Below, piece by piece: positions 10,267 through 52,757 of a DNA stretch of 64,000 nucleotides. This stretch comes from an uncultured Pelagibacteraceae bacterium (GTDB taxonomy: Bacteria; Pseudomonadota; Alphaproteobacteria; Pelagibacterales; Pelagibacteraceae). The stretch is taken from positions 35,242-99,241 of the forward strand of contig CACKDD010000004.1 of NCBI GenBank assembly GCA_902598825.1. Reading direction: 5' to 3'. The translations under genes and the position numbers were made by a program. How positions within the stretch are numbered: the first letter of the stretch is position 1; each line of letters begins with the position of its first letter. The notes beneath the pieces are model-generated. The model saw only the letters and a list, made by a program, of their open reading frames with translations, ran no database searches and had not been told where the DNA came from.

Positions 10267-10373
10267 TTTTGATAATAGAGTCAATACCCTGTGTTCTGTA
10301 TTATTATAAGTAATTTGAGCAAAAAGAAGTGAATCAAAACATGAACATTTGTTTTAATTTTTAGAAAAGATTT

Positions 10374-10728
10374 GCCAGATAAACTATAAGCCGGGTTCTG
10401 TCATTTAAACTTATCATTTGTCTAGGCTTAAGATCACTCTTAAACTCAAGCAACTAACCCTGATGACTAGCCAAGGACGGCTTTTAGTTTTTCAACAGTG
10501 TCATCTCTACTTAGTCTTGCTCCCAGTGGGGTTTTCCAGCGTTCATTGTTACCAATAGAACCGGTGTGCTCTTACCACACCTTTTCACCCTTGCCATGTT
10601 ATGGCGGTTTATTTTCTGTGGCACTATCCCTAGGGTTTCCCCTGCCAGGCGTTATCTGGCACTGTGTCCTTGTAGAGCCCGGACTTTCCTCTTTAAATTA
10701 ATTTAAAGCGACAAGTCATTTATCTGGC
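10374..10728 (-). ncRNA. rnpB: RNase P RNA (bacterial type A)
   Basis: Minus strand contains GAGGAAAGTCCGGGCTCTACA, CAGGGGAAACCC, GGTAAGAGCACACCGG, ACAGAACCCGGCTTATAG and complementary ends (AGATAAATGACTTGTC / GTTTATCTGGC). Ends approximate. Confidence 0.93.
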
Positions 10729-12967: not shown

Positions 12968-13044
12968 TGGTGGGCCCGCCAGGACTCGAACCTGGGACCA
13001 ATACATTATGAGTGTACTGCTCTAACCAACTGAGCTACAGGCCC
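12968..13044 (-). tRNA. tRNA with CAT anticodon (tRNA-Ile2 or elongator tRNA-Met)
   Basis: GGGCCTGTAGCTCAGTTGGTTAGAGCAGTACACTCATAATGTATTGGTCCCAGGTTCGAGTCCTGGCGGGCCCACCA; full cloverleaf with encoded CCA. GGxCC acceptor start resembles tRNA-Ile2 but identity not settled. Confidence 0.92.
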
Positions 13045-13113: not shown

Positions 13114-13188
13114 TGGTGGGCCGTGTTGGTTACGCTCCAACTACCCCTGCAATGTCAATGCAGTACTCTACTATTGAGCTAACGGCCC
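13114..13188 (-). tRNA. tRNA-Val (GAC), atypical T- and D-loops
   Basis: GGGCCGTTAGCTCAATAGTAGAGTACTGCATTGACATTGCAGGGGTAGTTGGAGCGTAACCAACACGGCCCACCA; 7-bp acceptor, 5-bp anticodon and 5-bp T stems intact, encoded CCA. Confidence 0.85.
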
Positions 13189-13202: not shown

Positions 13203-15029
13203 TTAACTTTCTAAGAAACTTTTTAATTGTTTTGATCTACTTGGATGTTTAAGTTTTCTAAGAGCTTTGGCTTCTATTTGTCGAATTCTTTCTCTTGTAA
13301 CCGAGAACTGTAACCCAACTTCTTCTAGTGTATGGTCTGTATTCATTCCAACACCAAATCTCATTCTCAAAACTCTTTCTTCCCTTGGAGTTAAAGTAGA
13401 TAAAATTTTGGTTGTTGCTTCCCCTAAATTAGATTTAATTGCCTGTTCTAACGGTGCAAGAGCTTTTGTATCTTCAATAAAATCTCCTAAGCTACTATCT
13501 TCTTCATCACCAACTGGCTTTTCAAGTGAAACTGGCTCTTTAGAAATTTTTAATACTTTTCTAACTTTATCTAATGGCATTCTGAGTTTTTTAGCTAATT
13601 CCTCTGGAGTAGCTTCTCTGCCAAACTCACTTAAAATCAATCTTTGAGTTCTTACAATTTTATTAATTGTTTCGATCATATGAACTGGAATTCTAATTGT
13701 TCTTGCTTGGTCAGCAATCGATCTAGTAATAGCTTGTCGTATCCACCAGGTTGCATAAGTAGAGAATTTGTAACCTCTTCTATATTCAAATTTATCAACT
13801 GCTTTCATTAGTCCAATATTGCCCTCTTGAATTAAATCTAAAAACTGCAAACCTCTATTCGTATATTTTTTAGCAATAGAGATTACCAATCTCAAATTTG
13901 CTTCGACCATCTCTTTTTTCGCAATTCTAGACTCTTTTTCTCCTTTTTGAACTCTACTAACTAATTTTTTAAAGTCAGTTACTGACATTCCTATTTTGTG
14001 ACTAAATTCAATTAATCTTTCTCTTATTTCTTTAAATTGATCTTTATTTTTAGAAAAGAATTGTTTCCAATCGGGATTTGTGTCCAAAAATTTTTTTAAA
14101 TTTGGGTTAATTTCATTTCCTATATAAAATTTTATAAATTCATTTCTAGGAATATTATGATTTATAGCTAATCTTAAAAGATTTCCTTCTAATGAAATAA
14201 TCTTTTTATTTTCTACATAATGCTTTTGTACTAATTCCTCTAAAACGGATGGAGATAATTGAAGAGATTTGATATTTTCTAATATTACTTGAACAATTTT
14301 CTCATAACTTTTTTCCTTAGCAGACGAAAAACTTTTTGAGAATAATATACAATCTAATTTTTCTTTTTGGTATTTTATAAGTTTATTGTAATCTTTAGTT
14401 AGTAGAGCAACTGTTTTTAAAACTTTAGGTTTAATCTCTGTTTCCATAGCAGCAAGAGTAGGATTAAATTCCTCATCAGTGTCTTCTCCTGAACCATCTT
14501 CACTAACAGTTTCACCTGCATTTTTTTGTTTTGCACTAGGACCTGTTGACTCATCTTCCATATAATTTGTGTCTATATCAATAATTTCCCTTACTAAAAT
14601 TTCATCTTTTTGTAATTGTTCATTCCAATCTGAAAATTGTTTTGCTGTAATTGGACTTTGTGAAAGTGCAATCAACATTACATCTTTTCCAGCTTCTATT
14701 CTTTTTGCTATAGCAATCTCTCCCTCTCTTGATAGTAATTCAACTCCACCCATCTCCCTAAGATACATTCTGATAGGATCGTCGCTTTTCTCCATTGTCT
14801 TACCTTCTTCTTTAGAAGAGCCCTCTTTTTTTCTTAAAACTTTGAAGTCTGATTTTTTTTCTACAAGAGAAATTTTTTCGTCTAAGATATGAATAAAAGC
14901 TTGAGATAAATTATCATCAGAAAGATTCCTTTTTCCTAAGGATTTACTTAATTCCTCATAGGTAATGAAACCCCTGTGAGTTCCTCGACCCATTAATCTA
15001 GCAAATGATTTAGTAATTATTCTTTCCAC
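13203..15029 (-). CDS. rpoD: RNA polymerase primary sigma factor RpoD
   Basis: [71 protein letters not shown]. Confidence 0.97.
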
Positions 15030-15095
15030 AACAATTAAATTGAAGAGTCTTATATAATGTCAAATCTACAAAAATCCATTCTTTATTTGTAAGGA

Positions 15096-51621: not shown

Positions 51622-51670
51622 GAATCCAAATAATTCAATCCTAGGTTGACCCAAGAATCTTTTTAGAGTC
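51622..51670. promoter_or_regulatory. Cluster of three GANTC (CcrM) sites upstream of ccrM
   Basis: GAATC 51622-51626, GAATC 51655-51659, GAGTC 51666-51670 between rnhB and ccrM. Confidence 0.6.
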
Positions 51671-51686
51671 TAATTTATTTTTACAA

Positions 51687-52757
51687 ATGAATTTTAATTT
51701 TAAAAATAAATTAATTAATGGTGACAGCTTAAAGGAATTAAAAAAAATTCCTGATGAATCTTTCGATTTAGTATTTGCAGATCCACCTTACAATCTTCAA
51801 TTAAAAAGTGAATTAACAAGGCCTGATAGATCTAAAGTAAATGCAGTAAACGATAAGTGGGATCAATTTGAAAGTTTTAAAAAATATGATGATTTTACTT
51901 ATGCTTGGCTAAGTGAATGTAAAAGAATTTTAAAAAAAGATGGAGCTATTTGGGTAATTGGTAGTTATCACAACATTTTTAGAGTTGGTGCTACAATTCA
52001 AAATTTAGGCTTTTGGATCTTAAATGATGTTATTTGGAATAAAAAAAATCCGATGCCAAACTTTAGAGGAACTCGTTTTACTAATGCTCATGAAACTTTA
52101 ATTTGGGCCTCTAAATCAGAGAAATCAAAATATACTTTTAACTATCAATCTTTAAAGTGCTTAAATGATGATCTTCAAATGAGATCTAATTGGGATTTGC
52201 CTATTTGTAATGGAGCAGAAAGACTGAAGAAGAATGGAAAAAAAGTACATTCAACACAAAAACCTGAAGCTTTACTTCATAGAATTTTATTAGCAACTTC
52301 AAATAAAAATGATTTGGTTTTAGACCCTTTTTTAGGCTCAGGAACAACCGCAACCGTTGCGAAAAAATTAGGTAGAAATTATTATGGTATAGAAAAAAAA
52401 AAAACTTATTTTAAAGCTGCTGAACAAAGATTAAAAAATACAGAACCTATTGAAGACAATTACCTAGATACAATTAAAAATAATAGATCTAAACCAAGGA
52501 TACCTTTTGGTTCATTGGTAGAATTAGGAATAATAAAGCCAGGAACAACTATTTTTGATAATAAAAAGAAAATAAGTGCAAAAATCATGGCTGATGGAAG
52601 CATTAAACACGCTCAAACAGAGGGTTCAATTCATAAAGTAGCAGCAACAATTTTGGGTGCTGAAAGCTGTAATGGATGGACTTATTGGCACTATAATTTG
52701 GATGGCACTGTAGTCCCAATCGATCATTTGAGACAAAAATTAATTTCAAAAGATTAA
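51687..52757 (+). CDS. ccrM: CcrM-type adenine DNA methyltransferase (GANTC-specific)
   Basis: LVFADPPYNLQL (DPPY), DPFLGSGTTATVAKKLGRNYYGIE, CcrM-type C-terminal extension (IPFGSLVELGIIKPGTTIFD... ESCNGWTYWHY). Confidence 0.93.
   Translation: MNFNFKNKLINGDSLKELKKIPDESFDLVFADPPYNLQLKSELTRPDRSKVNAVNDKWDQFESFKKYDDFTYAWLSECKRILKKDGAIWVIGSYHNIFRVGATIQNLGFWILNDVIWNKKNPMPNFRGTRFTNAHETLIWASKSEKSKYTFNYQSLKCLNDDLQMRSNWDLPICNGAERLKKNGKKVHSTQKPEALLHRILLATSNKNDLVLDPFLGSGTTATVAKKLGRNYYGIEKKKTYFKAAEQRLKNTEPIEDNYLDTIKNNRSKPRIPFGSLVELGIIKPGTTIFDNKKKISAKIMADGSIKHAQTEGSIHKVAATILGAESCNGWTYWHYNLDGTVVPIDHLRQKLISKD

Follow-up and report, generated by a model that had tools for sequence, protein, structure and literature searches.

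A conserved SAR11 tRNA-Val(GAC) gene with a non-canonical D-loop/T-loop elbow

Outside mitochondria, the elbow formed by the D-loop and T-loop is, to our knowledge, regarded as nearly universal among elongator tRNAs, with few natural exceptions named in reviews. A gene located in a 64,000-nucleotide stretch of DNA from an uncultured Pelagibacteraceae bacterium (the window, analysed as a whole) raises the question of whether a tRNA in which several of the customary elbow residues are changed can be a genuine decoder, and of how such an elbow might be held together. The gene, at positions 13114-13188 of the minus strand, was called tRNA-Val(GAC) by ARAGORN and matches the Rfam tRNA family (RF00005), and its identity is further backed by conservation and stem covariation. 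It reads GGGCCGT TA GCTC AATAGTA GAGT A CTGCA TTGACAT TGCAG GGGTA GTTGG AGCGTAA CCAAC ACGGCCC A CCA. It had been proposed from these letters that all stems pair and that CCA is encoded, and this was confirmed, as the acceptor, D, anticodon and T stems form 7, 4, 5 and 5 pairs with a single G-U, at 10:25, and the anticodon and T loops have 7 bases each. The proposed departures in the T-loop were found in the sequence as well, since the loop (13130-13136, minus strand) is AGCGTAA, or A54 G55 C56 G57 U58 A59 A60, in place of TTCRANY with U54 U55 C56 R57 A58, which turns 54:58 into A:U and 18:55 into A:G. With regard to the D-loop, AATAGTA (A14 A15 U16 A18 G19 U20 A21; 13169-13175, minus strand), the original prediction that G18-G19 is missing held in part: G18 is lost to A18, but the G of the loop aligns with G19. 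Since G19 and C56 are both kept, a 19:56 pair is possible, and the two residues were invariant in the 13 derived tRNA-Val sequences that were aligned, in keeping with the suggestion that a G19:C56-like contact may persist. The variable loop GGGTA (13142-13146, minus strand) has A48 where a pyrimidine is usual and the R15:Y48 pair is therefore missing; A48 was common to all 14 distinct derived sequences.

Such a gene might be a decaying or dispensable copy, or its loops might reflect sequencing error. It does have a lower Rfam tRNA score (53.6 bits) than the other two tRNAs of the window, which had been described as normal and were indeed canonical (Met, 72.7 bits; Gln, 62.8 bits), or than the canonical tRNA-Val(GAC) genes of relatives (61.8-71.6 bits), and 5 of the 57 genomes of the genus that are at least 90% complete gave no match to the gene pattern. 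Against this, the remaining 52 of the 57 did match, as did 285 of 399 genomes in the genus-wide pattern search, and nearly all of the matches listed had D- and T-loops of the window type. In a BLAST comparison with 40 relatives the gene was present in 19 of 24 same-genus genomes (its own excluded); in 15 of the 24 the match was identical, and in one more it stood at 99%, a single-base difference. Matches to the tRNA pattern came almost only from Pelagibacteraceae or Pelagibacterales, the window itself belonging to genus-level group g1 (SAR11), and 14 distinct derived sequences were collected from three genera. Across this set, changes in the acceptor, anticodon and T stems are compensated, and the D-, variable and T-loops are nearly fixed, the T-loop being AGCGTAA, AGCGTTA or AGCATAA only. 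When 13 of the 14 were aligned, all 299 of 299 pair cells were paired (100%; 34-49% in slid controls), both members had changed in 12 pairs (against a mean of 7.5 in shuffles, with 0 of 500 as high), and the covariation score was 0.475 versus 0.127. Chance can be set aside, since the loops are conserved across hundreds of genomes whose stems differ; identical copies in many separate genomes and purifying selection with compensatory stem changes refute decay or error in the main. The derived tRNA-Val is a genuine gene, and for practical purposes neither decay nor error need be considered further. The low score serves as a warning that genes of this kind are under-scored by tRNA models fitted to TTCRA.

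The elbow had also been thought to have changed in a coordinated manner, and a comparison of 31 distinct tRNA-Val(GAC) genes supports this, as D-loop and T-loop class agreed in 31 of 31: either G18-G19 was found with TTCRA or A18-G19 with AGCRT, and none of the 31 had a mixed combination of old and new loops. Canonical genes were found in the sister family f2, in genera g5 and g9 and in most of g8, and in a class-wide draw of 337 genomes all listed genes outside the window's genus were canonical. Canonical loops in close relatives had been named beforehand as evidence against a real change; such genes do exist in four genus-mates (G336, G451, G179, G067), but these are a small minority, and it is the odd form that prevails and is conserved. 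In all four the canonical gene adjoins rpoD, the same locus as that of the derived gene, and it appears to be the same gene; the G336 gene and the window gene have identical anticodon and T stems and differ in their loops and at the inner end of their acceptor stems. It is unusual that a free-living bacterial clade has a fixed, coherent alternative elbow while an apparent canonical forerunner survives within the same genus. In the rpoD tree the earliest branches within the genus are G179 and G336, in agreement with a canonical ancestor; G067 and G451 lie inside an unresolved group, where reversion or gene replacement is possible. The derived gene was also found in genus g7, at a different locus beside the initiator tRNA; contamination was rejected as its source, since the flanking regions agree with those of that locus in g5 and the complete genome G853. 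This distribution suggests that the gene either moved or predates the genera, 75 bases being too short to resolve the two, and the patchy spread over genera and two loci would allow for horizontal transfer.

The change at 18 and 55 is not confined to tRNA-Val. In the window's own, incomplete genome 24 of the 27 tRNAs found have TTCRA T-loops, the exceptions being tRNA-Val(GAC), tRNA-Phe(GAA) with TGCGAAT and tRNA-Thr(GGT) with GTCAGTA. In the complete genome G012, 29 of 32 tRNAs are canonical, and the odd ones are again Val(GAC), Phe(GAA) and Thr(GGT). Across the order, 55 tRNA-Phe(GAA) genes combine A18 with TGCGA (G55) and 74 combine GG with TTCRA (U55), with 0 mixed. By genus, the A18/G55 form was found in 44 of 68 genes in g1, 10 of 10 in g8 and 1 of 1 in g9, and in 0 of 6 genes in g5, g6 and g7 and 0 of 44 in f2. 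The tRNA-Thr(GGT) of G012 (C1:1131481-1131555), with D-loop AGGTAGTA and T-loop TGCAAGT, is also of the A18/G55 type, and that of the window's genome (L027:1501-1574) has the GTCAGTA loop with GG retained. Taken together with tRNA-Phe and one tRNA-Thr of the same clade, tRNA-Val is probably part of a wider trend towards A18/G55. A second tRNA-Phe type with canonical loops occurs within the genus, in G004, G048, G051 and others, and its T stem contains a mismatch (GCTGG/CCCGC).

How the derived elbow might be built can be judged from what is known of the canonical one, in which residue 18 intercalates between 57 and 58, the G18-Psi55 pair is made by a single hydrogen bond, and G19:C56 forms a flat outer face that serves the ribosome and other partners (PMC4810234). 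As the window tRNA-Val keeps G19, C56 and purines at 18 and 57, neither the stack nor the outer face need be lost. The G19:C56 outer pair, touched by the ribosome and RNase P, would be retained, a purine-purine A18:G55 pair would replace the weak G18:Psi55 contact, and A54 and U58 would form an inverted closing pair replacing U54:A58. A further contact is suggested by positions 16 and 59. Most derived genes have U16 with A59, and three sequences (G093, L074 and the complete g7 genome G853) have A16 with U59; D-loop AATAGTA was found only with AGCGTAA or AGCATAA, and AAAAGTA only with AGCGTTA. This covariation is exact, yet based on 3 of 13 sequences, perhaps one event, and suggests that 16:59 is a new D-loop/T-loop pair. 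Such a Watson-Crick contact, U:A or A:U, may offset lost stability. The same residues could instead form a different fold, an antiparallel helix between the D- and T-loops with U16:A59, A18:U58 and G19:C56 paired and G57 bulged. The invariance of A18 and U58 in derived genes, the covarying 16:59 and the freedom of position 57 to be G or A (A in G417) would all fit this helix, but 18:58 never varies, leaving covariation silent there, and tRNA-Phe, in which A18 would face A58, cannot use an 18:58 pair. We regard the helix as unlikely.

The derived gene can be compared with several known systems. With the canonical bacterial elongator tRNA-Val(GAC) with TTCRANY it shares the cloverleaf, the length of the stems, the anticodon arm, the encoded CCA and both G19 and C56, and it differs in having A18, A54, G55, U58 and A48 for G18, U54, U55, A58 and Y48, and in the covarying 16:59. 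Eukaryotic initiator tRNA-Met, in which nature is known to depart from U54 (PMC7912444), shares A54 with the window tRNA-Val; however, the initiator pairs A54 with A58, whereas the window gene encodes an elongator with U58 and G55. In tRNA-Sec an interaction between D-loop 16 and T-loop 59 has been described, C16:C59 or U16:U59 (PMC7609411), which is non-Watson-Crick and added to the canonical D/T contacts, in contrast to the covarying U:A or A:U set in a non-canonical elbow. Standard D- and T-loop residues are likewise missing in tRNA-Pyl and type II mitochondrial tRNAs, whose loops lack GG and T-Psi-C (PMC7609411), but tRNA-Pyl alters stem and loop sizes and the mitochondrial forms lose D/T contact, whereas the window tRNA-Val has a standard cloverleaf changed in the elbow only.

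A precedent for altered residues 18-19 raises the possibility that the tRNA does not serve in protein synthesis. In Staphylococcus aureus, non-proteinogenic tRNA-Gly isoacceptors with GG at 18-19 changed to UU or CU feed cell-wall synthesis (PMC4052509), and as in the window tRNA-Val the GG is lost from an otherwise ordinary tRNA. By analogy, the altered elbow could lower the use of the tRNA by EF-Tu and the ribosome, and the Val-tRNA would feed another pathway. The presence of a second valine tRNA, which had been singled out for checking, is in favor of this, since a canonical tRNA-Val(TAC) was found in both the window's own genome and G012 and might cover all valine codons; if it reads GUU and GUC too, tRNA-Val(GAC) could be partly dispensable. 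However, the S. aureus tRNAs change both 18 and 19, whereas the window tRNA-Val keeps G19, with G19:C56 intact, and changes 55 along with 18. In addition, G012 has only one tRNA-Val(GAC), and GUU and GUC account for 58% of its valine codons, which makes use in translation the simplest assumption. Furthermore, the sole tRNA-Phe(GAA), and indeed the sole Phe tRNA, of G012 must translate and has the same 18/55 swap, which shows that translation can proceed with it, and the tRNA-Val gene lies behind rpoD with no candidate pathway adjoining. A role outside protein synthesis is, in our judgement, very unlikely. We consider it likely that tRNA-Val(GAC) is a genuine, conserved decoder of GUU and GUC whose elbow has been remodelled as a unit, its pairing and its role in translation being deduced from sequence. 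The interpretation first put forward is supported and extended; on this reading the derived tRNA-Val is still a tRNA and a decoder.

The stop codon of rpoD (13203-15059, minus strand; NCBIfam RpoD, 777 bits), which encodes the housekeeping sigma factor, lies 14 bases upstream of the 5' end of the tRNA-Val, and a canonical tRNA-Met(CAT), identified by ARAGORN and Rfam (12968-13044, minus strand), follows downstream in the same direction, so that tRNA-Val is probably co-transcribed with rpoD. In the genus, rpoD was upstream of tRNA-Val in 15 of the 20 loci read, including all four canonical-loop loci, and the tRNA-Met was near tRNA-Val in many genus-mates too.

What could have permitted such changes? 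TruB is the Psi55 synthase that normally modifies elbow position 55. In the family draw, the 14 genomes in which TruB (TIGR00431) was detected all came from g5, g6, g7 and g262, and the other 184 gave no match; the search was positive in 14 of 14 control genomes. A profile built from the order's own TruB proteins gave 537 bits in G853 and no match above 17 bits in the complete genome G012. In g6 and g5 the operon reads infB-rbfA-truB-rpsO, and in g1, g8, g9 and the window's own genome it reads infB-rbfA-rpsO with truB cleanly absent (loci L709, L698-L708). As the TruB-less genera g1, g8 and g9 form one group in the rpoD tree (92/87), apart from g5, g6 and g7, truB was most simply lost once. 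The derived tRNA-Val, with G55, offers no U55 to TruB and no U54 for m5U. With truB gone, the advantage of U55, as Psi55, would be gone too, and a purine-purine 18:55 would be tolerated. TruB loss and the tRNA-Phe swap coincide, on one branch only, and the swap is confined to TruB-less genera, with canonical tRNA-Phe retained in 24 genomes of the window's own genus, which is itself TruB-less. Loss of truB may therefore have been a permissive cause of the tRNA-Phe swap and, for tRNA-Val, at most one factor. As a single cause of the tRNA-Val change it was rejected, since TruB-positive g7 carries the derived gene. Loss of m5U54, as judged from TrmFO, was also rejected as an explanation; TrmFO was absent from 16 of 16 order genomes tested, in which sub-cut-off matches of 49-57 bits in proteins of about 630 amino acids were read as MnmG, and its absence is common to genomes that have the change and genomes that lack it.

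A similar swap occurs outside SAR11. An Amesbacteria tRNA-Val (L078) has A18-G19 with G55-C56, and in viral contig L169 all 27 of 27 tRNAs in the 5.2 kb read of its 120 kb (L169:474-4842) have A18-G19 and G55-C56 with T-loop GTGCRA, leaving no TruB target U55 in this part of the set; three annotated phages with tRNA arrays were almost all GG/TTC. Judged by these sequences, there are at least three settings, unrelated to one another, in which positions 18 and 55 act as a pair that can be replaced. We tentatively propose, as a possibility that falls somewhat short of probable, that loss of the Psi55 synthase let a free-living clade evolve a second working elbow, with A18:G55 in several elongators, to which tRNA-Val adds the 16:59 bridge and the inverted 54/58, and that one virus uses A18/G55 for its whole tRNA set. 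In the literature nothing direct was found on A18/G55 or on SAR11 tRNA T-loops, and the terms valine, T-loop and G18 were absent from a SAR11 tRNA-signature paper. A general 18 by 55 table for viruses was abandoned, as loose scans gave 360 loci, only 5 of which had the pattern inside an ARAGORN tRNA, and tighter patterns gave 27 matches with 0 called as tRNA. Many viral contigs (e.g. L446:11074-11136) carry a repeated tRNA-like element, TTCCAG..TAGCTCAATGGTAGAGC..GAGAGTGCAAATCTCAC, with G18/G55 and no ARAGORN tRNA call.

The derived tRNA-Val would represent a fixed, coherent alternative elbow in a free-living and extremely abundant bacterial clade. Three SAR11 tRNAs have altered different parts of the elbow, and this offers a natural experiment on the contacts that are needed (19:56) and those that are replaceable (18:55, 54:58, 15:48), and also on the fate of tRNA sequences once the Psi55 synthase is lost. 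Two other structured RNAs were observed in the window, a full-length bacterial class A RNase P RNA at 10371-10727 on the minus strand (290 bits), 2.4 kb from the odd tRNA-Val, and a bablM sRNA (RF01784) at 51622-51690 on the plus strand (73.6 bits).
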